Positions 5,203 through 60,154 of a stretch of DNA of 64,000 bases are shown one piece after another (positions within the stretch are counted from its first letter, which is position 1; each line of letters starts with the position of its first letter). Both the position numbers and the translations under genes were made by a program. Location: assembly GCA_002724315.1 (NCBI GenBank), contig PBOJ01000014.1, positions 1-64,000 of the forward strand, written 5' to 3'. Below the pieces are notes generated by a model that saw only the letters and a list, made by a program, of their open reading frames with translations, did no database searches and was not told the origin of the DNA. Source of the stretch: Planctomycetaceae bacterium. Its GTDB lineage: Bacteria; Planctomycetota; Planctomycetia; Planctomycetales; Planctomycetaceae.

Positions 5203-5307
5203 ACCCGTATTGCCCGGTTGTCGGCTTTCTGGGACCATCCGCGATCCGCTGCCGGCCCGAGCGAGTCGGCATTCCCTGGCCCCCGACGCCGTTGCCCTCC
5301 ACCAGTC

Positions 5308-5694: not shown

Positions 5695-5752
5695 CCGTCG
5701 GGCAACCCGCAATTTCTCCTGCACTCCAGATCACCCAACCTCCACGAGGCCC

Positions 5753-12885: not shown

Positions 12886-15800
12886 GTGATACACCCCCTA
12901 CGCACCGCTCCCTGGAGGCTGCTGGTCCTTGGCGGTCTGGTTTCTCCCTTGCTGCTGGCCGGGTTGGCCGTTGTTTCGTCGGGGGTTCCGGCCCATTCCG
13001 GAATCGCCAACGCGGTGGCCGAAGAGGCGACCGAGCGGGCCATGGCCAAGCGGCTGTTCACCGCCGGCAACTTCAACGAGTCGTACAAGATCTACAGCCG
13101 GCTGGTCCTGCAGCCGGGGACCTCGGCCACGGAGGTTGGCGGTGACCTGAAACAGGCCATCGTCTGCCTGGGCCGGTTGGCTCGGACACCCGAGGTGGAT
13201 GCCCTGCGAGACAAGGTGGTCTCGATCCACCGTGGCAACTGGCGGTTGTTGCTGGCCGCCGCCCAGACGCTGGCAGATGGTCCGCACAATGGCCAGGTCG
13301 TCGCCGGTGAGTACCAGCGAGGCGGTTCGCGCGGAATCCGTCGCGGCCGTGTCCGGGCCCGTTTCGTCAGCTCCTTCCAACGGGACCGCACGATCGCTCT
13401 TGGCTGGCTGGAACAGGCCGTTCCGCTGGTCGCCGCTGAAGCCGGACAACCTGGCCAGCAGGAGCGGGGTCGGTTTCACGTCGAACTGGCCAGGATCCTG
13501 ATGCAGGGTCGGGAAGTCGGGCAGTCGTGGAGGCTGGCCAACCTGACTGACACGACGAAGCTGCCGGACTTCGAGGAGAATCGGTTCGGGTTCTACCGTC
13601 CCGGTTTCTCAGGAACTCCCCGCGGAGCACCGGTCGATCGGAAGAACAGCCCGATTTATCACGACGATTCCCGCACGTACAAGGCGGCGGCCAGCGATGG
13701 CCAGCGATGGCGGTGGGCATTGTCCGAGGCCGCCCGCGTGGACGCGGGGCTGCGGACATCGACGCTGGTCAGACGGGCCCGGTTTCTCCTGAGCCAGTTC
13801 GGTGTCCAGACCATGCGGCAGGCGGGCATCCAGCCCCGCGAGTCCGGCGACGGTGACGAACCGCCGGCAGGTCCGTGGGCAGTGAGGTCCTTGGCCGAGA
13901 ACGAGACGATCGCGCGGTTGGCGACGGGCGTGCGGCGTTTCGATCTGCCGGCTGAACACAATCACATCCAGCTGTTGATCGAAGCGGCCCGCGAGGGCCG
14001 CGGCGGAGACGCCTCCTCAGCGGCCGACCTGCTGGCCGGTGTCTTCGAGAATCGGCAGCAGTATCCTCGAGCAGCTGCGGCCTGGCGCGAGGCTATCAAA
14101 CGGTTCGGGCCAGGCAACAACATGTTTCGCCGCAAGAAGCTCGACCAGATCGTCGGCCGCTGGGGTCAGTTCGAGCGTGCGACGGTTGCCGCGGCCGGTA
14201 CCGCGACCACACTCGATTTTCGCTTCCGGAACGGCAACGAGCTGAAGCTCGAGGCGTTCCGGGTGCGGGTCGACCAGCTGCTGGCCGACGTCAAGGCCTA
14301 CATCAAGCGGAAGCCACTGAAGTTCGACTACAACGAGTTGAACGTCGAGAACATCGGTTTTCGACTGGTTCAGCAGAAGCAGCAGAAGTACATCGGTAAG
14401 AGAGTCGCCTCCTGGACCCAGAAACTGGTTCCTCGCCCCGAACACCTCGACCGGATGGTCACGCTCACCACGCCGCTGAAACAGGCCGGTGCCTACCTGC
14501 TGACTGCCCGGATGACCGGAGGCAACGTCAGCCGCATTTTGGTCTGGATCAGTGACACGGCGGTGGCGCACAAGCGGATCAACGGTGGCGACCTGTACTT
14601 CGTCGCTGACGCGGTCACCGGCTCGCCGATCGCCGGAGCCCAGGTCGAGTTCTTCGGTTACGAACAGCGGCGGATCCAGAAGCAACGTCGGGTCGAGATC
14701 AACGTCAAGGAGTTTGCCGAGGTCACCGACCGGCAGGGGCAGGTGGTGCCGCCGGTCGCCGCTCCCCAGCAGCGGTTCCGCTGGCTGGTGGTGGCTCGTG
14801 GAGCCGGTGGCCGCCGCGCGTACCTCGGGTTCCGCTCAGCCTGGTTCGGTCGCCGCGTGTCCCGGGTCTTTGACAACACCCGTGTCTTCGTGATCACCGA
14901 TCGGCCTGTCTACCGGCCCGGTCAACCCGTGCGGTTCAAGTTCTGGATTCGTCAGGCGCGTTACGACAAGGACGAGCAGAGCATGTATGCCGGACGGAAG
15001 GTGACGATTCGTGTCACCGATCCCCGCAACCAGGAACTGCTGGAACGCCAGTTCACCACCGACGCCTGGGGCGGGTTTGACGGTGAACTGGACCTGGCTG
15101 ATGACGCCAACCTGGGCCACTACAACATCCGCATCGTTCCCAAGAAGTCCGACCTGCTGGTTGTCGGGCAGAACAGGCGTTCGGTTGGCGGCGGCGGGTC
15201 GTTCCGGGTCGAGGAATACAAGAAACCGGAGTACGAGGTGACCGTCGAGGCCCCCGAGCGACCTGTGTCGCTGGGCAAGAAGATCAAGGCGAAGATCGTG
15301 GCCAAGTACTACTTCGGTGGCCCGGTCAGCCGGGCGACGGTGAAGTACCGCGTCCAGCGCGAGGCTCACAGTGACCATTGGTTCCCCGTCGGCCGCTGGG
15401 ACTGGCTCTACGGACCGGGCTACTGGTGGTTCGCCGATGCCTACAGGTGGTATCCCGGTTGGGGAACGTGGGGGTGTCCGGGCCCGGTGCCACCGTGGTT
15501 CGGCCGGCCGCACCATCCTCCCGAACTGGTCATGGAGAACGAGGCTGAGATCGGCGAGGACGGGACGGTGGAGTTGGAGATCGACACGTCGGTGGCCAAG
15601 CGGTTCCACCCCGACTTCGATCACCGATACCGGATCACAGCCGAGGTGGTCGACGGTTCGCGGCGGACGATTGTCGGCACCGGTTCGGTGATGGTTGCCC
15701 GTCAGCCGTTTCGCGTGGTGACCTGGGTCGACCGGGGTTTCTACCGCACCGGGCAGACGATCCGGGCCAGTGTCCAGGCCCGCACGCTGGACGGCCGCCC

Positions 15801-18800
15801 CGTTGCCGGGAAGGGCCGCTTCACGCTTTATCGGATCAGCTACGACAAGCAGGGGCGTCCCGAGGAGAAGCGGGTGCGGAGATGGGATGTCGCCACCGAC
15901 GACCAGGGTCGCACCACGTTGATGCTCAAGGCTACCGATGCCGGACAGTACCGCATCACGTGCGAAATCGAGGACGACGACGATCACCTCATCGAGGGCG
16001 CCCAGGTGTTCGTGGTCCGTGGTCCGGAATTCGATGGCGATGACTTCCGCTTCGATGACCTGGAACTGACCGCCGACCGACGCGAGTACAAGCCGGGCCA
16101 GGTGGCTCGCCTGATGCTCAACACCGATCGCCGTGGCAGCACCGTGCTGCTGTTCGTACGGCCCGAGGGTGGGATTTACCAGCGGCCACAGGTCATCAGG
16201 ATCCGGGGCAAGAGCACCGAGATCGAGGTTCCGATCGGGCCTGGCGACCGGCCGAACATCTTCGTCGAGGCGATCACCGTCTCGGACGGAAAACTGCACT
16301 CGAAGGTCCGCCAGTTGTTCGTGCCGCCCGAGAAGCGGGTGATCAACGTGGCGGTCAAGCCGTCGGCCGAGGAGTACCGGCCGGGGGATCCGGCGACGCT
16401 CGACGTGTCACTGACCGATGCGGGCGGCAAGCCGTTCAGCGGATCGCTGGTTCTGACGATGTACGACAAGAGTGTCGAATACATCTCGGGGGGCAGCAAT
16501 GTCGGAGAGATCCGGAAGTACTTCTGGAACTTCCGTCGTTCCCACTACCCGCGGACGGCCTCCAACCTCACCCGCTCGACCGGCAACCTGGTGAAACCCG
16601 GTGAGATGTCGATGTCCCGGTTGGGAGTCTTCGGGAACCTGGTCGTCCAGGAGATGTCGCGGGGTCGAAGAATGTTTGGCGGAGGGGGACCTGGTGCACC
16701 GATGGCGATGCGGGCCGCTGCGCCCAAGATGGCGATGGACAAGGCTGTCGCCGAAGCCGATGCCGGCGGCGGGCCACCCGGTGGCGACCTGGCCACGCCG
16801 ATGGTTCGTTCGGAGTTCGCCGACACGGCCCTGTGGGTCGGATCGGTGACCACCGACAAGGACGGACACGCGCAGCTGAAGCTCGACATGCCCGAGAACC
16901 TGACGACATGGACGGTTCGCGCCTGGGCGATGGGTCACGGGACCAATGTTGGCGAGGGCACAGCCAGTGTGCTGACGACCAAGAACGTGCTGGTTCGCTT
17001 GCAGGCTCCGAGGTTCTTCACGGAAAAGGACGAGGTGGTCGTTTCGGCCAACGTCCACAATTATCTCGACGACGACAAGACCGCGGTGGTTCGCCTGGCG
17101 GTGGATGGTGGCACGCTGGCACCAGTCGATCCACTGGAGAAACGGGTTCGTCTTCCTGCCGGCGGTGAGGTGCGGGTCGATTGGCGGGTCAAGGTGACGG
17201 CCCCGGGCGAGGCGAAGGTGAGAATGGCGGCGTTGACCGATGTCGAAAGCGACGCGATGGAGTTGACGTTTCCGGTCAAGATCCACGGGATGCAGAAGAC
17301 CGTCTCGACGACGGGAGTCCTGCGTGGTGACCGTCAGTCGACGCGTTTCGAGTTGACCGTTCCCGAAGCGCGTCGGCCCGATCGTTCGCGGCTGGAAATC
17401 CGCTACTCGCCGACTCTGGCGGGATCGCTGGTCGACGCCCTGCCCTACCTGGTCGACTTCGAGTACGGCTGTACCGAACAGACGCTCAACCGGTTTCTTC
17501 CCACCCTGGTCACTCACAATCTTTTGACGCAGATGAAGATCGATCTCGAGGCCGTTCGAAAGAAACGCACCAACCTCAATGCCGGGGAACTGGGCGAGGC
17601 GGGGGAACGGGCCAAGCGTTGGAAGCGGTTCAAGCGGAACCCGGTGTTCGACAACGCCGAGGTGGCCAGGCTGGTCAAGGAGGGCGTCAAGGCCCTGTCG
17701 GAGATGCAGCTGTCCGACGGGGGCTGGGGCTGGTTCTCCGGTCCGGGAGAAAGTTCCAGTGCCCACACGACTGCCACCGTCGTCCACGGGCTGACCCTGG
17801 CCCGGGCCAACGGTGCGGCCGTGGCGGCGGGGGTTCATGAGAACGGCGTGGCCTGGTTGAAGAGACGCCAGGCCGGCGAGGTGCAGAAGCTCAAGAATGC
17901 GGCCACCAAGACCAAGCCGTACAAGCTTCGCGCCGACAATCTCGATGCGCTGGTCTTCCGCGTGCTGGTCGAAGCCGACGCACTCGACGAGGCGATGGGA
18001 GACTTTCTGTACCGTGACCGCATCCAGTTGAGCGTCTATGCCAAGGGGTTGATCGGACTGGCCTTCCACGCCAGTGGCCAACTGCAACGGCTGGCGATGG
18101 TTGTCCGCAACATCGACCAGTTCCTGCAGCAGGACGACGAGAATCAGACCGCGTGGTTGCACCTGCCCGATTCGGTGATGTGGTGGCGGTGGTACGGGAA
18201 CGGGATCGAGGCGAACGCGATCTACCTGAAGCTGCTGGCCCTGACCGATCCCAAGGGCGTCCGCGCATCGCGCCTGGCCAAGTACCTGGTCAACAATCGT
18301 CGGCATGCGACCTACTGGAACAGCACCCGCGACACGGCGCTGTGCATCGAGTCGTTGGCCGAGTTCCTTCAGCGGAGCGGGGAATCGGTTCCCGATGTCA
18401 CGATCGATGTGGTGGTCGACGGAAAGGTGGCCAAGTCGGTGAAGGTCGATGCTGGGAACCTCTTCAGCTTCGACAATGCCGTGGTGATCGAAGGGGCCGA
18501 CGTGGCCGGTGGAAAGCACATCATCGAGGTCCGTCGTCGCGGCCGGGGGCCGGTGTACTACAACACCTGGCTGTCGTACTTCACGACCGAGGATCTCATC
18601 ACCAGGGCCGGACTGGAGATCAAGGTGCAGCGAAAGTACTACCGGCTGGTCCAGCGGAAGGATGCTACTGCCGACGTGCCGGGCGGCCGGGGCCAGGCAC
18701 TCAAGCAGGCCAGGCTGGTCTACGATCGCCAGCCGTTGGCCCACCTGGGGGAGTTGACCAGCGGTGACCTGGTGGAGATCGAGCTGGAGATCGAGAGCAA

Positions 18801-19095
18801 GAACGACTACGAGTACCTGGTGTTCGAGGATCCGAAGGCGGCTGGTTTCGAGCCGGTGGATCGCCAGAGCGGTTACACGGGGGGGTACCCGTCGGTGTAC
18901 CGTCAGCTGCGGGATGACCGGGTTGCGTTTTTCTTCAGGACCCTCGGTCGTGGTCGCCACAGTGTCTCGTACCGGGTGCGGGCCGAGATCCCCGGCCGTT
19001 TCAGCGCGTTGCCGACTCTCGGCAGCGCGATGTACGCTCCCGAGTTGAAGGCCAATTCGGACGAGATTCGGCTGGGAATCCGGGATCGGGAGTGA
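12886..19095 (+). CDS. Bacterial alpha-2-macroglobulin (thioester type), very large
   Basis: This exported protease-trapping protein of the A2M family has 2069 residues, against about 1650 for E. coli YfhM. It has a signal peptide (residues 1-38), a helical, repeat-like N-terminal region to about residue 450, and macroglobulin domains including an MG2-type block near 665-765 ([20 protein letters not shown]) and another near 950. A Gly/Pro/Met/Ala/Lys-rich segment at about 1265-1302 lies in the place of the bait region, followed by the conserved MG7 segment ([10 protein letters not shown]). The thioester motif GCTEQ is intact (Cys1529 to Gln1532), followed by the helical thioester domain. GTG 12886 is preceded by AGGAG. 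No PBP1C gene is adjacent, unlike in many proteobacteria. Confidence 0.93.
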   Translation: [2069 protein letters not shown]

Positions 19096-30369: not shown

Positions 30370-31362
30370 CTACCAGGACCAGGATGCCTGGACGTCGGGA
30401 TTGACCACTGCCGGACCCGGCCAGCTTCCTTCGTACAACGAAGCGATACAGTCAGCGGCCTCGTTGGCCATGTCCTGGATACTGGTCGTGTCGGCTCCGG
30501 CCAGGTGAGGGCTGACGACGATGTTGTCGAGAGCGAACAGGGGATTGTCGGCGGTGGCCGGCTCCTGCTCGAAAACGTCCAGACCGGCCGCGGCCAGCGG
30601 CCCGTTCTGCAGAGCGTTCAGCAGGTCACTCTCGACGATCATCCCGCCACGTGCCGTGTTGATCAACACGCTGTCGGGTTTCATTTTCGAGAACACGTCC
30701 GCGTTGAACAGACCGCGAGTTTCGTCGTTGAGCGGGCAGTGAATGCTGATGGCGTCGCTGCGTGACAGCAGTGTGTCGAAATCGACCAGTTCGATTCCCT
30801 GTTCGGAACAGAACGCCTCGTCGGGATACTTCTCGGTCGCGATCACCGTCATGCCCAGGGAGGCACACCGCACGGCCATGCTGCGGCCGATACGACCCAG
30901 GCCGAAGATGCCCATCGTCTGTCCGCGAATCGGCCGCATCGGCTCGGTGCTCCAGCCACCCGAGCGGACCAGTTTGTCATGAATGGCGACTCGCTTGGAG
31001 ACGCCGAACAGCAGGGCCAGTGCCTGCTCGGCCACCGCGGCGTGATTGGCCGTCGGTGTGATCGTCACCACCCGGCCCAGCCGTGTCGCGGCAGGAATGT
31101 CCACCTTGTCAAAACCCACTCCACAGCGGGCGATCACCCTCAGGCCCGGGCAGCCTTCCAGCACCTCGGCCGTCAACTGCTCTCCACCGGCAAGGATCGC
31201 ATCGATACCTTCCAGCCCGGCGATCGTCTCTGCCGGAGGTCTTCCCCGTGTGAACGTGGAATCTTCGGGATATTTCACTTCAAAACCCGCCCCCACCAAG
31301 CGGTCGACGTGTGGACCAGCCTGTTCGTAGAGGGCTTCGGGAGTGATCAATGCAGTGGGCAT
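30370..31362 (-). CDS. D-2-hydroxyacid dehydrogenase (SerA-like)
   Basis: This NAD-dependent D-isomer-specific 2-hydroxyacid dehydrogenase has 330 residues. The Rossmann motif is GIFGLGRIGRSMA. The catalytic Arg is in LINTARGGMI, a Glu follows in the LDVFEQEP segment, and the catalytic His is in VVSPHLAGAD. It resembles the catalytic half of phosphoglycerate dehydrogenase but has no ACT or regulatory domain, so serine synthesis is only one possibility; glyoxylate or other 2-keto acids are others. ATG 31362 has no Shine-Dalgarno sequence. A hairpin followed by a T-rich stretch lies in its leader (31391-31440), suggesting conditional expression. Confidence 0.88.
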   Translation of the reverse strand: MPTALITPEALYEQAGPHVDRLVGAGFEVKYPEDSTFTRGRPPAETIAGLEGIDAILAGGEQLTAEVLEGCPGLRVIARCGVGFDKVDIPAATRLGRVVTITPTANHAAVAEQALALLFGVSKRVAIHDKLVRSGGWSTEPMRPIRGQTMGIFGLGRIGRSMAVRCASLGMTVIATEKYPDEAFCSEQGIELVDFDTLLSRSDAISIHCPLNDETRGLFNADVFSKMKPDSVLINTARGGMIVESDLLNALQNGPLAAAGLDVFEQEPATADNPLFALDNIVVSPHLAGADTTSIQDMANEAADCIASLYEGSWPGPAVVNPDVQASWSW

Positions 31363-31390
31363 GGGGGCGTGGACCGAGGAAAAATGCAGA

Positions 31391-31440
31391 AACAGGGGCC
31401 GACCAACACCGCGCGGCTTGCCCGAGGACAAGCCCCTGTT
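31391..31440 (-). promoter_or_regulatory. Competing hairpins in the dehydrogenase leader (attenuator-like)
   Basis: Reading the minus strand, AACAGGGGC (31440-31432) can pair perfectly with GCCCCTGTT (31399-31391), followed within a few bases by the T-rich run CTGCATTTTT. The same 5' strand also contains GGCTTG, which pairs with CAAGCC (31420-31415) in a shorter hairpin. The two structures are mutually exclusive. The element ends about 30 bases before the dehydrogenase ATG, as expected for a transcription attenuator, but no ligand or leader peptide is evident. Confidence 0.35.
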
Positions 31441-31622: not shown

Positions 31623-31898
31623 ATGAGTGAGGATCCCCGCGACGCCGAAACCAGCCCAAACGAAATGACCATCGTTTGTTCGCACTGCGGAGCGGAAACT
31701 CCGTTGAGTTCGACGTCCTGCATCTCCTGCGAGGCTCCGCTGGATACGGTCGATCCGCAGTGGACGCTGGCCGACAACGATTCAACCAGCGGAGGGTGGT
31801 CAAGAGCCCTGGCCGGGGTCGGTTGTGCGATCCTGGTGCTGGTGGCCGCCGTGGGTGCCTTTTTCGTTGGTTGTGCCGTTCTCTTCACGCGTTTCTAA
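31623..31898 (+). CDS. Small zinc-ribbon membrane protein
   Basis: This 91-residue protein has an N-terminal zinc ribbon (CSHCGAETPLSSTSCISC, residues 19-36) and one C-terminal membrane helix (about 65-88). The ribbon would lie in the cytoplasm if the helix is a tail anchor. The start is backed by GGAGAAGG nine bases before ATG 31623. It is followed 40 bases later by the radical SAM gene and is probably cotranscribed with it. A role as a small scaffold or redox partner is conceivable but unsupported by sequence. Confidence 0.65.
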   Translation: MSEDPRDAETSPNEMTIVCSHCGAETPLSSTSCISCEAPLDTVDPQWTLADNDSTSGGWSRALAGVGCAILVLVAAVGAFFVGCAVLFTRF

Positions 31899-31938
31899 GA
31901 CTCCTGTCGCCGGTTTCCGCGAAAAGTTTGATTCTGTC

Positions 31939-33450
31939 ATGCCGATGCCCTTCCGCGATCACACGTTTCTTGGCATGACGCAGAGCCTGTGTCCGGAGTG
32001 CCTGGAACTGGTTCCGGCGAAGATCATCGAACGGGGCGGACGGGTGTATTTCCGCAAGCACTGCCCGACCCACGGTTCCCGTGAAGATTTCGTCTGCGGC
32101 GATGTGCACAGCTTTGATCGGCTCGAATTCAGTGTCCCGGGCAAGGTGCCGAGACAGGTTGGTGTCACGGCCACCGGGAAGGGATGTCCTTACGAATGCG
32201 GGTTGTGTACCGAACACGAACAGCACACTTGCGTGGGACTGGTCGAGATCACTGGGTCCTGCAATCTCTCGTGCCCGATGTGCTACGCCTCCAGTGGCCC
32301 CGGTGGGCAGCATCTTTCGTTCGAGGACGCCATCAAGTCGATCGACCGTCTGGTCGAGGTCGAGGGTCGTCCCGAGGTGCTGCAACTCTCCGGCGGTGAA
32401 CCGACGATCCACCCTGAGTTCCTCGAGATCCTCGACTACGCCTGTGGGCAGCCAATTGACATCGTGATGATCAATACCAACGGGATCCGGTTCGCCCGGG
32501 ATCGCGACTTCCTCGATGCGGTGGCCCGTTATCGTGACCGGCTGGAGATCTACCTGCAGTTCGACGGGTTTCGAGATGAGACCTACGAGTCGCTGCGGGG
32601 AGAGCCGCTGGCGGAGACGAAGCGGCAGGCCATCGAGGCCTTTGGTGAGGTGGGGTTGCGAACGACCCTGGTCACCACCGTCCAGGGAGGGGTCAACGAG
32701 GATGAGCTGGGGGCGATCATCGAATTCGGGTTGGACCGATCGTGGATCACCGGTGTCAGCCTGCAGCCGGCCACCTACAGCGGCCGTCACGTGCTGCCCG
32801 AAACGATCGAGGCCCGGGTCACGTTTCCGGAGGTGGTGAAGCTGATCGAGCAGCAGACCGATGGCCGGTTCGTGGCCGACGATTTCATGCCGCTGCCGTG
32901 TGCCCATCCCAACTGCCACACGCTGACCTACGCCTACCGTTCGGGAGGCCGCTGGATCCCGCTGATGCGGCTCATCGATGCCCGCGAGCACAGTGATCTA
33001 CTGGCCAACGGGATCACTTTCAACCGGTCCCGGGCGCGGCAGTTGATCGAGACGTATCTTGAGCGTCTGGGGCACTGTGGGCCCGAGGGCTGTTCGGTTC
33101 CGGGTGCGATCGACCAGCTCGTGGCGCCCGAGCTCCCGGTTCTGGCTGGTCAACCGATCGTTCCGCAGGGACCCGATGTCGCCGCCGATCCGCTGGCCCT
33201 GGAATTCTTCCAGCGGGGCCTGGCTGAGGACCTGGATCCATCGGACGTCTTCCGGATCACGATCACCTCGTTCCTGGACGCCTACAACTTCGACGTGCGG
33301 CGGGTGATGAAGTGCTGTATCCATCACGTGCTGCCTTCCGGACACGTGATTCCCTTCTGTGCGTACAACGTGCTGTATCGCGAGGGTCATCTTCCACTGC
33401 CGACGCTGGACCGGCTGGCCGAGTTGACCGCAGATGCGGCCAAGAATTGA
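31939..33450 (+). CDS. Radical SAM protein of the tetraether-synthase (Tes)/MJ0619-like family
   Basis: This 503-residue iron-sulfur enzyme cleaves S-adenosylmethionine through the [4Fe-4S] site CNLSCPMC (Cys108, Cys112, Cys115). A separate cysteine-rich N-terminus matches the pattern I know from MJ0619 and the archaeal tetraether synthase Tes: SLCPEC (18-21), KHCPTHG (42), then GCPYECGLC (Cys83, 87, 90) and HTC (98). Near the C-terminus lie KCCIHH and HVIPFCAYN, also typical. Tes joins lipid tails by C-C bonds, while MJ0619 methylates a pterin, so both lipid and cofactor chemistry are possible. The gene is followed directly by an Lgt-like membrane protein, which favours a lipid substrate. 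Confidence 0.85.
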   Translation: MPMPFRDHTFLGMTQSLCPECLELVPAKIIERGGRVYFRKHCPTHGSREDFVCGDVHSFDRLEFSVPGKVPRQVGVTATGKGCPYECGLCTEHEQHTCVGLVEITGSCNLSCPMCYASSGPGGQHLSFEDAIKSIDRLVEVEGRPEVLQLSGGEPTIHPEFLEILDYACGQPIDIVMINTNGIRFARDRDFLDAVARYRDRLEIYLQFDGFRDETYESLRGEPLAETKRQAIEAFGEVGLRTTLVTTVQGGVNEDELGAIIEFGLDRSWITGVSLQPATYSGRHVLPETIEARVTFPEVVKLIEQQTDGRFVADDFMPLPCAHPNCHTLTYAYRSGGRWIPLMRLIDAREHSDLLANGITFNRSRARQLIETYLERLGHCGPEGCSVPGAIDQLVAPELPVLAGQPIVPQGPDVAADPLALEFFQRGLAEDLDPSDVFRITITSFLDAYNFDVRRVMKCCIHHVLPSGHVIPFCAYNVLYREGHLPLPTLDRLAELTADAAKN

Positions 33451-33452
33451 TC

Positions 33453-34178
33453 GTGGCCGGTCGCATCATCTACGCGGCGATCATGATGGCGGCCGTGGTC
33501 GCTGCGGTCTGGTTGTCCAGAGGCCGACAGGCGCGACTGGGATTGACGGTGTGGCAGCGCGTGATGGTCGGCCTGGGCGGATTCACCGGTGCGTTCCTGG
33601 CGGCGAAGCTGCCGTTTTTTCTTTCCTACGTCGTTGATGGCGATTGGCCGGCGGTGCTCAGCGGCCGGGCGCTGTTTTCCGACGGGAAGACCATCATGCT
33701 GGGGCTGGCGGGAGGGTACGCGGGGGTCGAGTTCGGCAAGTGGTACAGCCGGGTGAAGGTCTCGACCGGTGACAGCTTCGCGGTCTCGATTCCCGTGGCG
33801 GTGGCAATCGGACGGCTGGCCTGTTTCACCAACGGATGCTGTCACGGCATCGCCACCGGCCTGCCGTGGGGCGTCGATTTCGGTGACGGAATCGCGCGAC
33901 ATCCGACACAGATCTACGAGTCGTTGTTTCACCTGGGCTGTGCCGTCGTGCTGGCATCTTTGCGGCGTGACGGGATGCTTACCGGACAACTGTTCAAGCT
34001 CTACCTGGTCGTGTATTCGACCTACCGCTTCGCGACCGAATTCATCCGCCCCGAGGCGAAATTGTGGGGCGGCTGGACGGGATACCAGTGGGCGGCGGTG
34101 GTGATGGTGGGGGTTTTCGGTGCCCTGTGGTGGGCACAGGCCCGGACTGGCCAGCGTGATGTCGACGCGGTAGGGTAG
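33453..34178 (+). CDS. Lgt-like (prolipoprotein diacylglyceryl transferase family) membrane protein
   Basis: This 241-residue polytopic membrane protein has Lgt-family landmarks: IGRLACFTNGCCHG in place of the Lgt signature (Arg and Asn kept, the usual Glu region replaced by Cys-Cys), HPTQIYESL, and RFATEFIRPE near the C-terminus. Lgt moves diacylglyceryl from phosphatidylglycerol to lipobox cysteines. The GCCHG variant marks a subfamily of Lgt homologues whose activity I do not know to be proven. The start is GTG 33453, or TTG 33447 overlapping the radical SAM stop. Close coupling with the radical SAM enzyme suggests a joint role in lipid modification. Confidence 0.82.
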   Translation: MAGRIIYAAIMMAAVVAAVWLSRGRQARLGLTVWQRVMVGLGGFTGAFLAAKLPFFLSYVVDGDWPAVLSGRALFSDGKTIMLGLAGGYAGVEFGKWYSRVKVSTGDSFAVSIPVAVAIGRLACFTNGCCHGIATGLPWGVDFGDGIARHPTQIYESLFHLGCAVVLASLRRDGMLTGQLFKLYLVVYSTYRFATEFIRPEAKLWGGWTGYQWAAVVMVGVFGALWWAQARTGQRDVDAVG

Positions 34179-37271: not shown

Positions 37272-38288
37272 TCACTCGCTTTCCAGGAATCGGTTCGTGA
37301 AGGTCTCTGACACGTTCACTGCTCCGGGCTTGATCGCCTCAACTTCCACCAGCTGATCCAGCAGCGTCTTCCAGCGTGCTTCGCTCATCTGCCCCAGTTG
37401 CTTGCGGGGGGTGTCCTCGGTCGAGCACAACTCCTGCAACTCCTTTGCGCCGAAAGCGAGAATCGGCAGGCCCATCTCCTCGTTTCGTTCGTGGATCGCC
37501 TGGTTGGTCCGGCTGGGATCATCAAGGTACTTCTGCCATCCGGCGATCGATGCCCGGACCATGGCGGTCACCAGTTCAGGCCGATTCTTGATCACTTCCG
37601 GTGTCGTGATCAATACGCTGGTGTAGGGATTGAAACCGAGGTCAGAGACCATCAGGACGCGGGGGCGAACGGATTTCTGACGAGCGACAAACGGCTCGCT
37701 GATCGAATACCCCTGTTGTGCGAAGTCGTCATCGAGCAGGAACTGTGTGACATTGCCGGCATAAGGCACCAGCTGCACTCCGCTCAGGTCGATTTTCTTC
37801 TGCAGAAATAGCGACCAGGTGGCCGTGCTGCTGACAGCCAGTGAACTGACCTGTCCCAGCTTCTCGAGCGAGTCGATTCCCGAGTTTTCGTGGACCATCA
37901 CGCACCGTGGGCTGACCTGCATCGCTGCCATCACTGCCACCGTTTTGGCTCCGGCGGCGTGGCCGACCAGCACGCGGTCGGCGTTGGTCACACCGAACAG
38001 GACCCGCCCCGTGGCGACCTGGGTGATGACCTGGACCCCTGGGCCTCCGGGTCGAATTTCCACATCCAACCCGGCGTCGTCGTAAAGCTCGTGGACATCG
38101 GCAGAAAAGAACCCGCCGTGTTCGGCTTCCGGAAACCAGTTCAATTGCAGAGACACCGCGGTGGGTGGCCGGACGATCTTGTCGGCAGAATCATCTTCGG
38201 GAACAGGCCGCGTTTCACCGCAACCTGCACAGGCCAGCAGCACTACAAGCGGCCAGTGTCGAAGCCGGCGAGAGGAGGTGGACGGCAT
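37272..38288 (-). CDS. ABC importer substrate-binding lipoprotein (NMT1/THI5, NitT/TauT type)
   Basis: This 338-residue exported binding protein has a signal sequence ending in LLACAGCG, which is lipobox-like. The mature part starts with the NMT1/THI5 hallmark LQLNWFPEAEHGGFF, followed by AGLDVEIRPGGPGV. Members bind thiamine-pyrimidine precursors, riboflavin, taurine, nitrate or aliphatic sulfonates. The opening motif resembles pyrimidine-binding ThiY/THI5 proteins, but no thiamine gene or TPP riboswitch is visible nearby. It is the last gene of an ATPase-permease-binding protein run on the minus strand, with 75 bases between it and the permease. Confidence 0.85.
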   Translation of the reverse strand: MPSTSSRRLRHWPLVVLLACAGCGETRPVPEDDSADKIVRPPTAVSLQLNWFPEAEHGGFFSADVHELYDDAGLDVEIRPGGPGVQVITQVATGRVLFGVTNADRVLVGHAAGAKTVAVMAAMQVSPRCVMVHENSGIDSLEKLGQVSSLAVSSTATWSLFLQKKIDLSGVQLVPYAGNVTQFLLDDDFAQQGYSISEPFVARQKSVRPRVLMVSDLGFNPYTSVLITTPEVIKNRPELVTAMVRASIAGWQKYLDDPSRTNQAIHERNEEMGLPILAFGAKELQELCSTEDTPRKQLGQMSEARWKTLLDQLVEVEAIKPGAVNVSETFTNRFLESE

Positions 38289-38363
38289 GCGAGGGTGTCC
38301 GGGAGGGTTGTGGCTGGGTCATTGTTGTTGTTCACGGGACGGTTGTCACGTCGTTGGCAATTC

Positions 38364-39152
38364 TTACTTCTCAACGCCCGATCCCCACCGTGCCAGCAGT
38401 GTCGAGCCGGTCAAGGTCACAATTCCGAACAGGGCGATTCCCAGGAGTGCCGAGGCGATCACCGCGGCGAAGAGGTGTGCCGTCTTGAGGTTCTGCGACG
38501 TGCTGAGGACCAGGTACCCCAGCCCGTAGTGGGTCGTTGTGTGGCCGACGAAGAACTCGCCGACGATCGCTCCGATCACGGCCATTCCACTGCTGGTCCG
38601 GGCCCCGGTGACCAGGTAGGGCACCGCGTGAGGGAGTCTCAGTTTCCAGAGCACCTGCCAGCGGCCGGCACGGTAGAGTCGAAACAGCTCGAGCAGATCC
38701 TCGTCGATGTTGAGCAGTCCCGAGGTGGTCGAGGCAATGATCGGGAACAGGCTGATGATCAGTGTCACCAGCACGACGCTGGCGAACCCTGTGCCGAACC
38801 AGGTGATGATCAGTGGGGCGATGGCGATGATCGGGACCGTCTGCAGGAAGATCGCATACGGGTAGCAGCTGGCCCGCACGAGCCGGGATTGCGAGAAGAT
38901 GACGGCGATCAGGACACCGCCAAGCAGGCTGGCGGCGAACCCGGCGACGGCGGCCACTCCGGTTCGGGCGGTCGCGGACAGCAATCGGTCACCGTCCTCG
39001 ACCACCGCAGTGGCCACGTCGGTGGGAGCGGGGACAAGGAACACCGGCCAGTCGAACCACCACACGGCCGTCTGCCACCCGGTCAACACGACCAAAAGCA
39101 GCAACAGCGGTGGCCACCAGGCCGCCAGGCGGAACCAGGATGACGGGCTCAC
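38364..39152 (-). CDS. ABC importer permease (NitT/TauT family)
   Basis: This 262-residue inner-membrane permease of the SsuC/TauC/ThiX type has about six helices. The ATPase-contacting loop contains the family feature ELFRLYRAGRWQVLWKLRLP, equivalent to the EAA motif, and LPHAVPYLVTGAR follows. The start is GTG 39152, whose last two bases form part of the ATPase stop (GTGA overlap), so both proteins are made together. It completes an importer with the flanking ATPase and NMT1-type binding protein. Confidence 0.9.
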   Translation of the reverse strand: MSPSSWFRLAAWWPPLLLLLVVLTGWQTAVWWFDWPVFLVPAPTDVATAVVEDGDRLLSATARTGVAAVAGFAASLLGGVLIAVIFSQSRLVRASCYPYAIFLQTVPIIAIAPLIITWFGTGFASVVLVTLIISLFPIIASTTSGLLNIDEDLLELFRLYRAGRWQVLWKLRLPHAVPYLVTGARTSSGMAVIGAIVGEFFVGHTTTHYGLGYLVLSTSQNLKTAHLFAAVIASALLGIALFGIVTLTGSTLLARWGSGVEK

Positions 39153-39925
39153 CTCGCCTCCTCCCGGTCACTATTCCGCAGGGTGGTTGAGACGTCACCG
39201 GCCAGTTGTGCGAAATCGGCGGTGGCCCGTAGTGCGGCGTTGCGAGGTCGAGAGAACCCGACGGGCACGTGTACGAATTCATCCCCGGTGGTCGCCGGCA
39301 TCACCACCACCCGGTCGGCCAGGAACACCGCCTCGGAGACGTTGTGGGTGACGAAAATGGCCGTGGTGCCGCGAGCCGAGTGAATCTCGAGCAACTCCTC
39401 GTTGAGTTGTTCTCTGAGCAGGTCGTCGAGCGCGGCGAAGGGTTCGTCGAGCAGCAACACATCGGGTCGAGTGACCAGGGCCCGTGCCAGCGACACCCTC
39501 ATCCGCATCCCTCCCGACAGTTCTCGCGGCCGTTTGACCGCGTCGGCCGGGCCGAAACTGATCAGCTCCAGGCTCTCGCCGACCCGCTGCCGGGCCTCTG
39601 TCGCTTCCACGCCCAGCAATTCCAGCGGCAGACGGATATTCTCTTCGACCGTTCGCCACGGCAACAGGTTGGGTTCCTGGAAGACCAGGGCAACCCGGGA
39701 ATCCTCATATCGCTCCACTGTGCCGGAGGTGGGTTCCAACAGCCCGGCCATGAGTCTCAGTGCCGTCGACTTGCCGCAGCCCGAGGGGCCGACCAGGGAC
39801 ACGAATTCGCCGTCGGCGATTGTCAGATCAACCCGTTCGAGCACGGGGTGTCGCGCGTCGAAAGCCACAGTGACCCCGTCGAATGACAGAGCCGGCAGAA
39901 CGGATGGTGCCGACGGGGAATCCAA
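39149..39925 (-). CDS. ABC importer ATP-binding protein (NitT/TauT family)
   Basis: This 258-residue ATPase has Walker A GPSGCGKSTALRLMAGL, Q-loop FQEPNLLPWRTVEENI, signature LSGGMRMRVSLARAL, Walker B LLLDEPFAALD and the switch His in FVTHNVSEA. The PNLLPW sequence after the Q-loop is typical of nitrate, taurine and sulfonate importers. The only start that covers the first strand is TTG 39925. The 3' end overlaps the permease start as GTGA. A divergent gene starts 176 bases away. Confidence 0.9.
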   Translation of the reverse strand: MDSPSAPSVLPALSFDGVTVAFDARHPVLERVDLTIADGEFVSLVGPSGCGKSTALRLMAGLLEPTSGTVERYEDSRVALVFQEPNLLPWRTVEENIRLPLELLGVEATEARQRVGESLELISFGPADAVKRPRELSGGMRMRVSLARALVTRPDVLLLDEPFAALDDLLREQLNEELLEIHSARGTTAIFVTHNVSEAVFLADRVVVMPATTGDEFVHVPVGFSRPRNAALRATADFAQLAGDVSTTLRNSDREEAR

Positions 39926-52172: not shown

Positions 52173-53207
52173 ATGGCTTCAACCGCACCAGAATCCACCA
52201 CACCCGAAACGGCCGCTTCTGCGACATTTCCCAATGTCCGGATGCGTCGCCTGAGAACCCATCCCCGGTTGCGGGAGATGGTCCGCGAGACCCGGTTGTC
52301 TCCGTCGGACTTCATCCTGCCGCTGTTCATCCGGCATGGTGAGAACCAGCGGTTGCCGATTTCCTCGATGCCCGGCCACAGCCAGTTGACGGTTGACCTG
52401 CTGGCTGAGGAGGTGAAGGAGATCGCATCGCTGGGCATTCCGGCAGTGATCCTCTTCGGGATTCCCGCCGAGAAGGATGCGGTGGGCAGCGATGCCTGTG
52501 ACGACCAGGGAATCGTGGCCGAGGCGGTGCGGGCGATCAAGGCCAGCGGCACCGACCTGCTGGTGATCACCGACGTGTGTTTCTGTGAGTTCACCGACCA
52601 CGGCCACTGCGGGATCATCAACGACCGCCATGGAACCCTGGATGTCGACAACGACGCGACGCTGGAGATCCTGGCCACCCAGGCGGTCACCCATGCCCGG
52701 GCCGGTGCCGACATGGTGGCGCCATCGGGAATGATGGACGGGATGGTCGGGGCAATCCGTGGCGGGCTCGATGCGGCCGGTTTCACCAACCTGCCGATTC
52801 TCAGCTACGCGGTGAAGTACTCGTCGGCCTTCTACGGCCCGTTCCGCGATGCGGCCGAGAGTGCTCCGCAGTTCGGTGATCGACGGACTTACCAGATGGA
52901 TCCGGCCAATGCGGGCGAGGCCCTGCGAGAGGCGGCGCTGGACGTGGCCGAGGGAGCCGACCTGCTGATGGTCAAGCCGGCCCTGGCCTATCTGGACATC
53001 ATCCATCGCGTCAAACAGGCTCATCCGGGTGTTCCCCTGGCGGCCTACAATGTCAGCGGTGAGTACGCGATGGTCAAAGCGGCTGCCGAGGCTGGTTGGA
53101 TCGATGAGCAGGGTGTGGCCCTGGAGAGCCTGCTGGCGATCAAGCGGGCCGGAGCCGACATGATCCTGACCTACTTTGCCAAGGATGCCTGTCGCTGGCT
53201 GGGCTAG
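52173..53207 (+). CDS. hemB: Delta-aminolevulinic acid dehydratase (porphobilinogen synthase)
   Basis: This enzyme condenses two aminolevulinic acid molecules into porphobilinogen in tetrapyrrole synthesis. The 344 residues include the cysteine-rich zinc site [14 protein letters not shown], both catalytic lysines (in [17 protein letters not shown] and LLMVKPAL), and the C-terminal [17 protein letters not shown]. The DVCFCxxTxHGHCG spelling marks a Zn-dependent rather than Mg-only enzyme. An N-terminal 20-residue Thr/Ala/Pro tail precedes the domain. Its TAG stop shares CTAG 53204-53207 with the convergent uvrA gene. Confidence 0.97.
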
Positions 53208-56200
53208 CCGTCCCGGTTGGCTTCGCACGCGGCCCGGTGTTCTTCCAGGAACCGCGAGAGGTCGGCGTGGCGAGCCTGCTTGAGCGATCGGAACGAGATC
53301 TTCACAGCGTCGCGCCCGTCCTTGTAGGTGGTGATCTCGCGTCTGGAACCCAGTGAGGCCACCCGCCCCAGCGGAATCGCCCCGGGGGGACCAAACAGGA
53401 CCAGGTCGACCGAGTGAACCCGTTTGGTCCACAGTTGTGCCCACACCGGACCGGTCTCTGAGAGCCGGAACGAGACCGACATGCGACCGGTCCAGTCGGT
53501 GACCGGTTTCCCGGCAGTGGTGTTCAATCCGTCGGCGAGTTCTTCCACCAGACCCTCGGGCCACCCCACCCGCTTGCCAGCCGGGAACCCCTTCCGCATC
53601 TGGTGCCACTTTTGTCCCAGCACCTTCCAGGGCATCAGGTTCTCGGGATCCTGTTTCGAACGGCGGGTGTGCTCGAGAAACGAGTCCTGGGCTGTCGCCA
53701 GGAATGCCCGGAATTCGGGGGTGTCAATTTCCCGCAGCCAGTGGACCTTCAGTGTCACCTCTTGCCACGGTCCCTTGATGTTCTTGACACCCACGCGGGA
53801 TCCCCGTCCGTAGATCGGCAATTCGTCGATGTCGTCGAGCGGCTTGAGATCGAGTTGTTGCTGGAGTTCCTCGCGGTGAAACGTGTTGCGTCGCACCCGG
53901 AATTTCAGCGTTACCAGCCATTCTCCACCGGTCAGGGCATGGAAGAACCATCCGTCCTTCTTCACCTGTCCGTTGATCGTGACGACGCTGCGAGAGTTGA
54001 AATCGGCCGCGCGGAGGTCGCCGCAGGTTTCCAGTTGATCGAGGACCGTTTCGAGCACCCCGCCCTCCCAGCGGGCGGGTTGGCCGTTGTGGGCAATACG
54101 GTCGGTGGTGTGCCAACGGCGACCGTCCCGTTCCCATGGCATCCGCGCTTCGCGACCGATCTGTCGGAAATCCAGGTCGCCGTCCCGCTTCTCGGCGACG
54201 GTCTTGACGTTGAACACGTCCCGGTCAGCCCGTTCGCCGGATCGCAGCACCGGGCCCAGCAGTTCTCCGGTCCACGACCTGGGTTCACCTCGCCGCTTGG
54301 CCACTCGAGCCTGGTCGACGACGTCCTCGGGGGTTCCCGTGGCCACGATCCGACCGCCACCGGAACCGGCCTCCGGACCCAGGTCGACAATCCAGTCGGC
54401 CGTCTTGATCACGTCGAGATTGTGCTCGATCACGACCACCGTGTTTCCCGCCTCGACCAGGCTTTCGAGCACCTTCAACAGCTTGTCGATATCGTCGAAG
54501 TGCAGCCCGGTGGTGGGTTCGTCGAGCAGGTAGAGCGTGCGTCCGGCCTGGGGTCGTGCGAGTTCGGCGGCGAGCTTGACGCGTTGGGCTTCTCCCCCCG
54601 AGAGCGTCGGGGCGGGTTGTCCCAGCGTGAGATAGTCGAGGCCAATCGCACACAGCGTGGCCAGGGGCGCACGGATCCGCGGAATGTTTTCGAACAGTTT
54701 CAGGGCCCCGGCGATCGGCATGTCGAGCACGTCGGCGATCGTGTGGCCGTGGTAGGTCACCGCCAGCGTCTCGGTGTTGTACCTCCGCCCCCGGCACTCG
54801 TCGCACTCGACCCACACGTCCGGCAGGAAGTGCATCTCGATGCACTTCTGACCGTTTCCCTCGCAGGCCTCGCACCGGCCGCCGGCCCGGTTGAAACTGA
54901 ATCGCCCCGGGCGATAGCCGCGGACCTTCGATTCGGGCAACCGGGTGAACAGTTCGCGGATCTCATCAAAGACACCGGTGTAGGTGCCCGGGTTCGACTT
55001 GGGCGTGCTGCCGAGAGGCTGCTGGTCGACAACGATCACCTTGTTGAGGTGTTCGATTCCCCGGAGTGCGGAGAATGGGCCGGGTGTGTCTCCTGTTCGA
55101 TGCAGTTGCCGGGAGACGGCACGGGCCAGGGTGTTTTCGATCAGGGAACTCTTGCCCGATCCGCTGACCCCGGTGATGCAGGTCAGGGTGCCCAGGGGGA
55201 TCCTCAACTGGACGTTGTCGAGGTTGTTCAGTCGAGCCCCGTCGAGTTCCAACCAGGCTCCACCCGGAGGATCGGCGTCGGGCGTTTGGGCCGAAGCCAT
55301 TCGTCTGTTGGCGGGGATCGAGATCGTGCGACGGTTGGAGAGGAACTTGCCGGTCAACGACCGGGTCTTGCCGGCCAGTTCCTCGGGCGGTCCTTGCGCG
55401 ACAATCTTGCCGCCGTGCTGCCCGGCTGCAGGTCCGAAATCGACCAGCCGATCGGCCGTTTCGAGCACTTCGCGGTCGTGTTCGACCACCACCAGCGTGT
55501 TGCCGAGATCCCGAAGACGCTGGAGAGCTCCCAGCAGCCGACGGTTGTCCCGGGGGTGCAGGCCGATGGTGGGTTCGTCGAGTACGTAGAGCACCCCGGT
55601 CAGGGCGCGACCGACCTGGCCGGCCAGCCGGATTCGTTGGCTCTCGCCTCCCGAAAGCGTGGGAAATGGGCGGTCGAGGCTGAGGTAATCGAGTCCGACG
55701 TCGACCAGGAATTTCAGGCGGCTGATCGCTTCCCGCAACAGGTCCCCGGCGATCCGCTTCTCGTCACGACTCAGCCGCACGCGGCGGAGTGCTTCCAGGG
55801 CCTTGTCGAGCGGCAGTCCGCACAGCGATCCGATGGTCTGGCCGAGCAGTCGCACGGCGGCCACATCGGGTCTGAGCCGGCTGCCGTCGCAGGAGGCGCA
55901 ATCGACCTCGCCCACCAAATCCAGCAGACGCCGGCGGTAGGTCGCCGAGACCCGTGACGCCTCTTCAATGGCCGGGTAGAGCCCCTTGTACTGCATCGAG
56001 ATCGTTGGGCCGTCGGGGAGCGTGACGGGGAACCAGCGGTCGCCGGTGCCGTAGAGCACCAGTCGACGGGCGGCCGGGGACAACCCTGAGAACGGAACGT
56101 CCAGGGGAAGGTCGAATTCCCGGTGCAGCGCGTCGAGAGTTGCCGAGAAGATCGGCACCGTAGAGGGGTCTGGCCATGCGGCGATGGCTCCTTCGCTGAG

Positions 56201-59200: not shown

Positions 59201-60154
59201 TTCCTCGGGCAGGAACTCGTGACGTCGGCCCAGCCCATTGCATTCCAAGCACATTCCCAGGGGGCTGTTGAAGCTGAACAGTTGAGGCGTGGGGGGTTCG
59301 TAACTGATTCCGCAACGACCGCAGGCGTAAAGAGAACTGTAGAGCGTGTCTCGGTCGGTGGGGGTTCCGGTGGACGGTTGGCCGGGTCGACCTGGGGTCT
59401 CCTCCGTCACACTCAGCAGCAACGTGCCGTTTCCCAGGCGCAGTGCCGTCTCGACGGCCTCGGCCAGGCGGCTTCGGCCACCCCGACGTGAGGAAAGCCG
59501 GTCGACGACCACCTCGATCGTGTGACGCATTTGTCGATCGAGTCCAAGATTCTCGCTCAGCGAGACGGTTTCACCGTCGACCCTGGCGCGGACGAACCCC
59601 TGCTTCAGCAAGTCGTCAAACAGGTCACGATACTCGCCTTTCTGCTGCTGGATCAGTGGGGCCAGGACGCTGTAACGGGTTCCGGTCGGCAACGCGCTGA
59701 TCGATTCGATGATCTGCTCGGATGTCTGTGCCCGAATTTCTCTCCCACACCGGGCACACCCTGGGCGGCCAACCCGGGCGAACAGGACGCGGAGATAGTC
59801 CTGGATCTCGGTGATCGTTCCCACGGTACTGCGCGGGTTCCGGCTGGCGGATTTCTGCTGGATCGAGATCGACGGAGCCAGGCCGCTGACTCGGTCGACG
59901 TCGGGCTTGGGGAGTTGGCCCAGGAACTGGCGGGCGTAGCTGGACAGGCTCTCGACGTAACGTCTCTGGCCCTCCGCGTAGAGCGTGTCGAAGGCCAGTG
60001 AGCTCTTTCCCGAACCGCTGACTCCGGTCATGACGATCAGCCGGTTGCGTGGCAGGCTGAGGCTGACGTTGCGGAGATTGTGTTCGCGGGCGCCGCGGAT
60101 CTCGATATCCGCCGCGTCGATCATCAACCTGCTTCCCGGCCGCGTCCGGCTCAC
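53204..60154 (-). CDS. uvrA: Tandem-fused UvrA (two UvrA copies in one chain) with C-terminal extension
   Basis: This 2316-residue protein contains two complete UvrA units; UvrA recognises DNA lesions in nucleotide excision repair, normally as a dimer of about 950 residues each. Copy 1 (about 11-1000) has Walker [10 protein letters not shown] (Lys50), zinc pairs CGRCG/CLECN, signatures [13 protein letters not shown] and [12 protein letters not shown]. Copy 2 (about 1012-1960) has [32 protein letters not shown], a second GVSGSGKSS and [12 protein letters not shown], plus the C-terminal zinc module. All four ATP sites look intact. About 350 extra residues follow without a family I recognise. 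GTG 60154 overlaps the upstream stop as GTGA; ATG 60124 is the alternative. Confidence 0.95.

Follow-up and report, generated by a model that had tools for sequence, protein, structure and literature searches.

GDGT-MAS (MJ0619; PDB 7tol and 7tom) is the closest enzyme of solved structure to the radical SAM protein described here. Its cluster and rubredoxin ligands have been assigned, its C-terminal cluster has been proposed to store a substrate radical, and its Met439 is present without exception in about 1000 archaeal homologues; the M439A enzyme remains active (PMC9433317). Homologues of Tes in bacteria, those of Planctomycetota and Chloroflexota among them, are being taken as potential indicators of branched or membrane-spanning tetraether lipids (PMC8941075, PMC11868695). 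Mss, found in Bacillota and Thermotogota, is described as having the Tes catalytic architecture (PMC13274423). It is discussed with Ger/PlsA and not with Lgt, in contrast to the family treated below. The active site of E. coli Lgt faces the periplasm, and H103 is essential in this enzyme (residue roles: PMC4728403). Other Lgts have a different residue in place of this His, more distant ones have a Cys for N146, and an M. smegmatis N146C homologue has been presumed to be weakly active (PMC13251419). For MYXO-CTERM proteins, a helix-linked Cys without a lipobox has been proposed as lipidated by an Lgt-like enzyme (PMC11980579).

In the window (the whole 64,000-nucleotide stretch of DNA analysed), a check of the open reading frames shows a tight, co-directional unit of three genes. 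They encode a small protein with a Cys near a transmembrane helix (TM-Cys protein), a radical SAM protein, and a membrane protein of the Lgt fold. All three frames that the preliminary description had placed here are present, and the motifs it quoted are where it put them. The features are as follows.

31623..31898, + strand: small TM-Cys protein, 91 aa, with a CSHC/CISC N-terminus and one C-terminal hydrophobic helix ending AFFVGCAVLFTRF; proposed substrate
31872..31874, + strand: codon of Cys84, which is predicted to lie close to the outer end of the only TM helix; candidate site for lipidation or modification, invariant in four close relatives
31939..33450, + strand: radical SAM protein, 503 aa, ATG start, GDGT-MAS/Tes fold, Lgt-linked family (PF04055, PF23545, 7tol match)
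31990..32073, + strand: rubredoxin-like site C18/C21/C42/H45 (GDGT-MAS C9/C12/C33/H36), in 115-118 of 120 family sequences
32185..32217, + strand: N-terminal auxiliary cluster site C83/C87/C90/H93 (GDGT-MAS C73/C77/C80/H83), in 120/120
32260..32283, + strand: radical SAM cluster motif C108-x3-C112-x2-C115, in 120/120 family sequences
32899..33360, + strand: C-terminal auxiliary region with C321 (PLPC), C326, C459, C460 and C474, from the family alignment
33453..34178 (GTG start) or from 33447 (TTG start), + strand: Lgt-like integral membrane protein, 241-243 aa (PF01790; 5azb match)
33810..33848, + strand: Lgt signature region GRLACFTNGCCHG, with R121 (E. coli R143) kept and N146 and E151 changed to Cys

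The TTG start at 33447 overlaps the stop codon of the radical SAM gene. Our literature search turned up no report of an Lgt/radical SAM system or an Lgt selenoprotein for this pair, a weak absence given thin coverage of subscription papers and bioRxiv. We conclude that the locus probably belongs to a system, not described before, for modifying small membrane proteins or anchoring them by a lipid.

The radical SAM family and its cluster sites

Two Pfam models recognize the radical SAM protein above their cut-offs, Radical_SAM (PF04055, 82.5 bits) and Zn_ribbon_HMPTM (PF23545, 69.9 bits). From its motifs, the preliminary description had assigned it to the Tes/MJ0619 family and had proposed structure prediction and HMM comparison as a check. 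Both are informative. GDGT-MAS 7tol is the closest solved structure (E 6.7e-79), and the AlphaFold2 model (pLDDT 85) matches it over the full length with a TM-score of 0.76; sequences from plasmid records were left out of the AlphaFold2 input alignments. The fold and domain order of GDGT-MAS/Tes are therefore shared, and this part of the assignment holds. The protein nevertheless falls short of Tes itself, with 302 bits against a cut-off of 450 for the NCBIfam model NF045702; as a positive control, the planctomycete proteins L113 and L114 reach 577 bits. Its top NCBIfam score (341 bits) is for TrsS (NF045646), where the cut-off of 490 is also missed. In the tree, the Lgt-linked family stands apart from both archaeal GDGT-MAS and genuine planctomycete Tes (split 99/95). 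Other relatives, in Mycolicibacterium and Halorarius, differ in adjoining methyltransferase genes and having no Lgt; the Mycolicibacterium relative is closest to the DVU_1556 model. A Foldseek search with the window model also matched its SAM core to RiPP maturases, including SkfB, SuiB and a sactipeptide maturase. A defence role was considered as well and rejected, as PADLOC gave only weak viperin-type matches to this core.

The rubredoxin-like, N-terminal auxiliary and SAM cluster ligands of GDGT-MAS are all present in the window protein and in nearly all of its 120 relatives. Unlike GDGT-MAS, every one of the 120 family sequences has the Met439 position deleted. The equivalents of C338, C455 and C470, whose assignment as ligands comes from the alignment and not from coordinates, are kept in the window protein (C326, C459 and C474) and lost in most lineages. 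The family has extra invariant Cys residues of its own at C98, C321 and C460. The family-specific Cys residues (PxPC, CC, C460) hint at an auxiliary cluster that has been re-wired. The protein is predicted to be soluble and cytoplasmic.

The Lgt-like membrane protein

The adjoining membrane protein was proposed to belong to the Lgt superfamily, and it does. It scores 98.6 bits against PF01790 (LGT), for which the Pfam gathering score is 24.9, and the single significant PDB match to its AlphaFold2 model (pLDDT 93) is E. coli Lgt 5azb, with a TM-score of 0.67. It shares not only the fold but also several key residues of canonical Lgt. Equivalents of R143, E202, Y235 and R239 are invariant in 51/51 Lgt-like proteins, that of E243 is Glu or Asp in 50/51, and that of R246 is Arg or Lys in all 51. 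The window protein has the catalytic R143, Y235, R239, E243 and R246 all as in E. coli. Unlike canonical Lgt, the cassette protein does not reach TIGR00544 (54 bits vs 118.9). H103 is absent from the Lgt-like proteins, where the region is hydrophobic, and N146 is a Cys in 49/51. In addition, the cassette gene is a paralogue distinct from the housekeeping Lgt that these genomes also carry.

The host's other Lgt (L001) has H103 and N146 replaced too and likewise lies below the TIGR00544 cut-off, at 106 bits. The Lgt tree sets L001 within the cassette group, a placement left unused here as only 62 of its residues (19% of columns) entered the alignment. Comparison with L001 also disposes of GCCHG, which had been singled out as a special variant: L001 has GCCWG at this position, and GCC is missing from many cassette Lgt-like proteins.

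Linkage across phyla and the small TM-Cys proteins

The preliminary description had allowed that the neighbours might prove random in other genomes. Instead, the radical SAM and Lgt-like genes are linked across phyla. Of 59 relatives, 16 carry the radical SAM gene, and these are precisely the 16 that carry a cassette-type Lgt. Within 148 Bacteroidota genomes, 14 of the 15 that bear the radical SAM gene have the Lgt-like gene too, and the other 133 hold one strong Lgt-like match alone. Profile counting places both genes in the fetched stretch at 68/80 loci from Planctomycetota, Chloroflexota, Bacteroidota and Cyanobacteria; this stricter count was adopted because the 76/80 obtained by neighbour clustering was inflated by overlapping frames. 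For the remaining 12 genomes, the Lgt-like gene lies elsewhere in 10. The order of the two genes is reversed between lineages, and a Mycobacterium avium plasmid carries an Lgt, two small TM-Cys genes and the radical SAM gene together. A compact form is seen at the Flavobacterium locus L070, where the Lgt-like gene spans 5265-6005, the radical SAM gene 5998-7386 and the small protein gene 7393-7590. Genuine planctomycete Tes genes have no Lgt neighbour, and genuine Tes and the other Tes-like clades have neither partner of the cassette. The pair is not a chance neighbourhood.

The small TM-Cys proteins are the recurrent third part, which the preliminary description overlooked; the gene at 31623 is one form of it. 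Small TM-Cys reading frames are present at 63/80 cassette loci, compared with 3/65, 3/68 and 8/80 in the controls. Each such locus encodes one to five of these proteins, whose last helix bears a Cys at its predicted outer end. Up to five diversified copies stand in tandem between the Lgt and radical SAM genes, as would be expected of substrates. When TM reading frames directly 3' of the radical SAM gene were chosen by position, with no Cys required, 31/32 carried a Cys 4-11 residues from the C-terminus. Basic residues precede rather than follow the helix in 102/114 candidates, a bias partly built into the search, and a lipobox ([LVI][ASTVI][GAS]C) appears in just 2/114 candidate acceptors. An invariant Cys beside a TM helix, with no lipobox, is reminiscent of MYXO-CTERM/myxosortase-type sorting. 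However, the cassette layout is inverted (basic segment, helix, Cys), the targets are tiny, the partner is a radical SAM enzyme, and no protease was noticed adjoining the pair in the loci read.

The 91-aa protein has the same position and layout as the small TM-Cys proteins of other cassettes, and in three genomes its relatives retain C68 and C84 as well as the gene's place before the radical SAM gene. It has no Pfam or NCBIfam match, and its zinc ribbon label derives from a CxxC..CxxC pattern; the host genome holds no second copy elsewhere. Among the small TM proteins as a whole, none exceeded a Pfam or NCBIfam cut-off, bar a zinc ribbon in one, and zinc-ribbon forms occur in Planctomycetota and Chloroflexota. 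A three-part system in at least five bacterial phyla is well supported.

A proposed route to modified membrane proteins and its alternatives

The best explanation of these data, to which we would give an even chance, is a single dedicated system for modifying small membrane proteins: its Lgt-like enzyme would lipidate the Cys, and its radical SAM enzyme would modify the lipid tail or the hydrophobic peptide. The small TM protein would insert so that the basic segment stays inside and the conserved Cys marks the outer end of its last helix. Having kept the phosphatidylglycerol-binding and catalytic network, the Lgt-like enzyme would move a diacylglyceryl (or related lipid) group onto this Cys. 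The cytoplasmic Tes-like enzyme would carry out C-H radical chemistry, either on the lipid tail, ahead of the transfer or following it, or on the hydrophobic peptide prior to insertion. With the radical SAM protein predicted to be cytoplasmic and the Cys predicted to be outside, the two steps would have to be separated, either in time or by the part on which each acts. We infer the Cys as lipid acceptor and likewise the identity of the donor, the sequence of steps and the role of the radical enzyme. The recurrence of the small proteins suggests a modified membrane protein as the product, either in place of a free membrane lipid or in addition to one. Counting against this explanation are the missing lipobox, the absence of H103, the change of N146 to Cys, and the 17/80 loci in which no small TM-Cys reading frame was found under the rule used, some of them owing to contig ends, overlapping ORF calls or distance. 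In a bolder form, the Tes-like enzyme would make a C-C-linked or otherwise modified tail and the Lgt paralogue would fix it on the outer Cys of tiny TM proteins, giving an unprecedented, possibly membrane-spanning anchor in at least five phyla; we hold this form to be possible but doubtful.

Lipid-tail chemistry by the pair, as first suggested, survives in part. The folds and the cross-phylum linkage agree with it; the radical SAM protein is not Tes, has no Met439 position and has mostly lost the C-terminal Cys residues, and small TM-Cys proteins recur. Put in full, this first view is one of lipid synthesis proper, in which the radical SAM enzyme would couple or alter acyl chains (for example, tail to tail into a membrane-spanning lipid), the Lgt-like protein would move the lipid to a head group or acceptor, and the small TM proteins would be accessory. 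The full-length GDGT-MAS fold of the model is consistent with this, as are the kept rubredoxin, N-terminal auxiliary and SAM ligands and the three C-terminal Cys residues of the window protein. M439A GDGT-MAS is still active (PMC9433317), and bacterial Tes homologues, including those of Planctomycetota, have been proposed for brGDGTs (PMC8941075, PMC11868695). We nonetheless consider lipid synthesis unlikely: the family misses the Tes cut-off and forms a separate clade, most lineages have lost C-terminal ligands and all have lost Met439, genuine Tes loci are without Lgt linkage, and an invariant Cys in diversified tandem small proteins would be left unexplained.

RiPP-like peptide maturation fares no better. 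Here the radical SAM enzyme would act on the small peptide, perhaps forming a thioether or C-C crosslink involving the Cys, and the Lgt-like protein would anchor, flip or cap the product. Small, tandem, sequence-diverse products beside a radical SAM enzyme fit this picture, as do the Foldseek matches to RiPP maturases and the extra Cys residues (PxPC, CC, C460). However, no SPASM family or leader-binding domain exceeded a Pfam or NCBIfam cut-off, no leader-core layout was seen, a TM helix carries the Cys at its predicted outer end, and over its whole length the radical SAM protein has the fold of a lipid enzyme.

Improbable by comparison is a membrane redox or metal module, in which the Lgt-like protein would be a non-catalytic membrane anchor and the Cys proteins would serve as scaffolds or redox partners. 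The zinc-ribbon small proteins of Planctomycetota and Chloroflexota, the extra Fe-S capacity of the radical SAM protein, and the loss of H103 and N146 could be read in this way, but invariance of the R143, Y235 and R239 equivalents over several phyla is hard to explain without catalysis. Pterin methylation, the old assignment of MJ0619 that survives in the Pfam name Zn_ribbon_HMPTM and that the preliminary description had weighed as a possible role of the closest relatives, has next to no probability here, being uncorroborated for MJ0619 itself (PMC9433317) and at odds with partners that are Lgt-kind membrane proteins and small TM proteins.

In the planctomycete genomes sampled, most of the stronger matches to the Tes model fall within the family tied to Lgt and TM-Cys genes, so additional evidence should be required before such genes are assigned to lipid synthesis. 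Genuine Tes can be distinguished by its score, its C-terminal cluster and its neighbours. Cultured genera, among them Flavobacterium, Chitinophaga and Oscillatoria, also have the cassette, which makes direct testing possible. If the proposed dedicated system is correct, it would represent a second, dedicated route of protein lipidation with a radical enzyme of its own.

Gene layout and protein relationships

The preliminary description recognized a small protein, a radical SAM protein, and an Lgt-like membrane protein as a unit, and this observation of the genes is confirmed. All three are codirectional on the plus strand and are flanked by genes of unrelated families. A 40-base gap separates the first from the second, and a simple scan found no sigma-70-like promoter at the cassette.

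Genes of the cassette and its flanks
30370-31431, minus strand: 2-hydroxyacid dehydrogenase gene, divergent, flanking the cassette on one side
31623-31898, plus strand: small protein gene, 91 aa, CSHC/CISC, one C-terminal helix
31939-33450, plus strand: radical SAM protein gene, 503 aa
Start GTG 33453 or TTG 33447, plus strand: Lgt-like membrane protein gene, 241 aa, its start touching the radical SAM stop codon
34233-35117, plus strand: FKBP gene, flanking the cassette on the other side

Elsewhere the window encodes a bacterial alpha-2-macroglobulin (12886-19095, plus strand; 2069 aa), an ABC transporter with NMT1/THI5-like binding protein, permease, and ATPase (37272-39925, minus strand), and a double-length UvrA with two UvrA interaction and two DNA-binding stretches (53204-60154, minus strand; 2316 aa).

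The radical SAM protein matches Pfam Radical_SAM and Zn_ribbon_HMPTM. Its NCBIfam scores for TrsS (341 bits, cut-off 490) and Tes (302 bits, cut-off 450) both fall short and therefore place it outside these two families by those rules. The nearest solved protein is the tetraether synthase GDGT-MAS (7tol, E 6.7e-79), and an AlphaFold2 model aligns to 7tol/7tom with a TM of 0.76 over about 510 columns. The membrane protein belongs to Pfam LGT (98.6 bits) and scores below the TIGR00544 cut-off; E. coli Lgt is the sole significant match to its model (5azb, TM 0.67). A further Lgt is encoded elsewhere in the host.

Genuine Tes was found in 2 of 294 planctomycete-phylum genomes, at loci L113 and L114 (genomes G112 and G090), at 577 bits and thus above the NCBIfam cut-off. 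These genes may be more promising than the window gene as candidates for archaeal-like lipid synthesis. No Lgt-like neighbor was present at either locus or at the L115-L119 loci; with short flanks, one was counted at 18 of the 23 loci of the window family in the planctomycete-phylum sample. A split in the tree (99/95) sets the Lgt-linked family apart from archaeal GDGT-MAS, genuine planctomycete Tes, and L115-L117. Some genomes of this phylum also carry two or three Tes-like radical SAM genes in tandem (L118, L119; G204:C15, G122:C299, G101:C132), including copies lacking the N-auxiliary cysteines. In relatives from Mycolicibacterium and haloarchaea, a methyltransferase stands in place of Lgt and is another partner type within the Tes/TrsS-like superfamily: on plasmids of Mycolicibacterium vanbaalenii (L143) and Halorarius (L144), a Tes/TrsS-like radical SAM gene precedes a methyltransferase gene, DVU_1556-like in the former.

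Linkage and distribution of the pair

The radical SAM and Lgt-like genes are linked. Among 59 related genomes, 16 carry the full-length radical SAM protein (E about 1e-87 or better), and exactly these 16 also carry the cassette-type Lgt (E below 1e-30); neither occurs in the other 43. A scan of approximately 85,000 species genomes gave at least 474 loci, the best 80 of which were taken; these come from Planctomycetota, Chloroflexota, Bacteroidota, and Cyanobacteria, with one filed as Pseudomonadota. Both genes lie together in the fetched stretch at 68 of these best 80, radical SAM first in most Planctomycetota and Lgt first elsewhere, and for 10 of the remaining 12 a cassette-type Lgt is found elsewhere in the genome. 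In 148 Bacteroidota genomes, the radical SAM gene is present in 15, 14 of which have the Lgt-like gene (on separate contigs in G390), and a strong Lgt-like match without it appears in one (G373). Relatives occur in 7 of 117 cyanobacterial genomes, and Lgt adjoins a divergent radical SAM gene in Nonomuraea and on a Mycobacterium avium plasmid. Such a patchy distribution is as for an accessory system. In both trees the copy from one planctomycete, L120, falls among Bacteroidota, suggesting that the two genes were transferred together. At L109, where three tandem genes for small cysteine proteins separate the pair, the radical SAM gene groups with a non-Planctomycetia clade and the Lgt-like gene with a Planctomycetia clade, suggesting exchange of one cassette part. 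At L094, a cassette carried by a MAG that is filed under Limnohabitans clusters with Flavobacterium in both trees, probably because of a binning error.

Cluster ligands and the Lgt pocket

Using the GDGT-MAS ligands named in PMC9433317, we find the rubredoxin, N-auxiliary, and SAM cluster ligands in nearly all 120 family sequences. The C-terminal domain lacks the Met439 position in 120 of 120, and Cys338, Cys455, and Cys470, whose ligand role was assigned from alignment, are retained in 56, 43, and 44, respectively; the window protein keeps all three. Since the M439A variant of GDGT-MAS remains active (PMC9433317), loss of the Met by itself proves little, and losing the Cys, as Bacteroidota and Cyanobacteria have, is more telling. 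Family-specific cysteines are invariant in a diverse alignment (C98, C321 in PxPC, and C460), and CC or CxnC is present in 96/100 Lgt-linked sequences, a pattern that suggests a re-wired auxiliary cluster.

Residue roles for Lgt were taken from PMC4728403 and PMC13251419. Across 51 cassette Lgt-like proteins, the equivalents of R143, E202, Y235, and R239 are invariant, R246 is R/K, and E243 is E/D with one exception; N146 is Cys in 49, E151 is variable, and H103 is lost. By this comparison, the proteins retain the network proposed for phosphatidylglycerol binding and transfer catalysis, within an altered pocket. The host's other Lgt shares N146C, E151C, and the loss of H103.

Small cysteine proteins and a proposed three-part system

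A recurring feature of these loci, found on reading them, is one or more small hydrophobic proteins whose last helix has a Cys near its end (TM-Cys proteins). They take two-helix forms of 55-70 aa directly after the radical SAM gene in Bacteroidota (...YLIVGLGICGGLIS), forms of about 110 aa in Cyanobacteria (...ALVNFGCYLF), and zinc-ribbon forms in Chloroflexota and Planctomycetota; the M. avium protein ends ...TAGICTGLNP. The window's version is the 91-aa protein, in which C68 and C84 do not vary across four relatives. A rule requiring K/R, at least 14 uncharged hydrophobic residues, and then Cys was applied to same-strand ORFs 40-260 aa long and no more than 800 bases away. It picks out such ORFs at 63 of 80 loci, as compared with far-flank counts of 3/65 and 3/68 and an opposite-strand count of 8/80. 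When TM ORFs were picked solely by position after the radical SAM stop, 31 of 32 had Cys 4-11 residues from the C-terminus. One genome has five related, diversified copies in tandem between Lgt and radical SAM genes (L157, G034:C143). In 102 of 114, basic residues come before the helix and are absent after the Cys, a layout partly built into the search, which by the positive-inside rule would place the Cys outside. A multi-helix membrane protein weakly similar to the PilS 6TM domain is encoded at L040:4725-5408 and 11 other planctomycete loci, often adjoining the zinc-ribbon TM-Cys gene; absent in the window, it is a possible fourth component.

We infer that the TM-Cys protein would be the substrate, with its outer Cys lipidated by the Lgt-like enzyme, and that the Tes-like enzyme would act by radical chemistry on either the lipid tail or the hydrophobic peptide. 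MYXO-CTERM offers a precedent, as it shares a helix-linked Cys without a lipobox and its lipidation by an Lgt-like enzyme has been proposed (PMC11980579). Against lipidation stand the lipobox in just 2/114 candidate acceptors and the altered H103 and N146 positions. Rival readings are a free unusual lipid as the product, peptide crosslinking, and a redox module. The earlier proposal, in which the pair may build or use an unusual lipid, is correct on kinship and on linkage and unproven as to lipid-tail chemistry, and it is incomplete in overlooking the cysteine proteins. The family libraries and literature searched contained no description of the three-gene system, and no precedent was found for a radical SAM partner in such a modification. 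The best explanation is Lgt-type protein modification with dedicated targets, which is known in kind.
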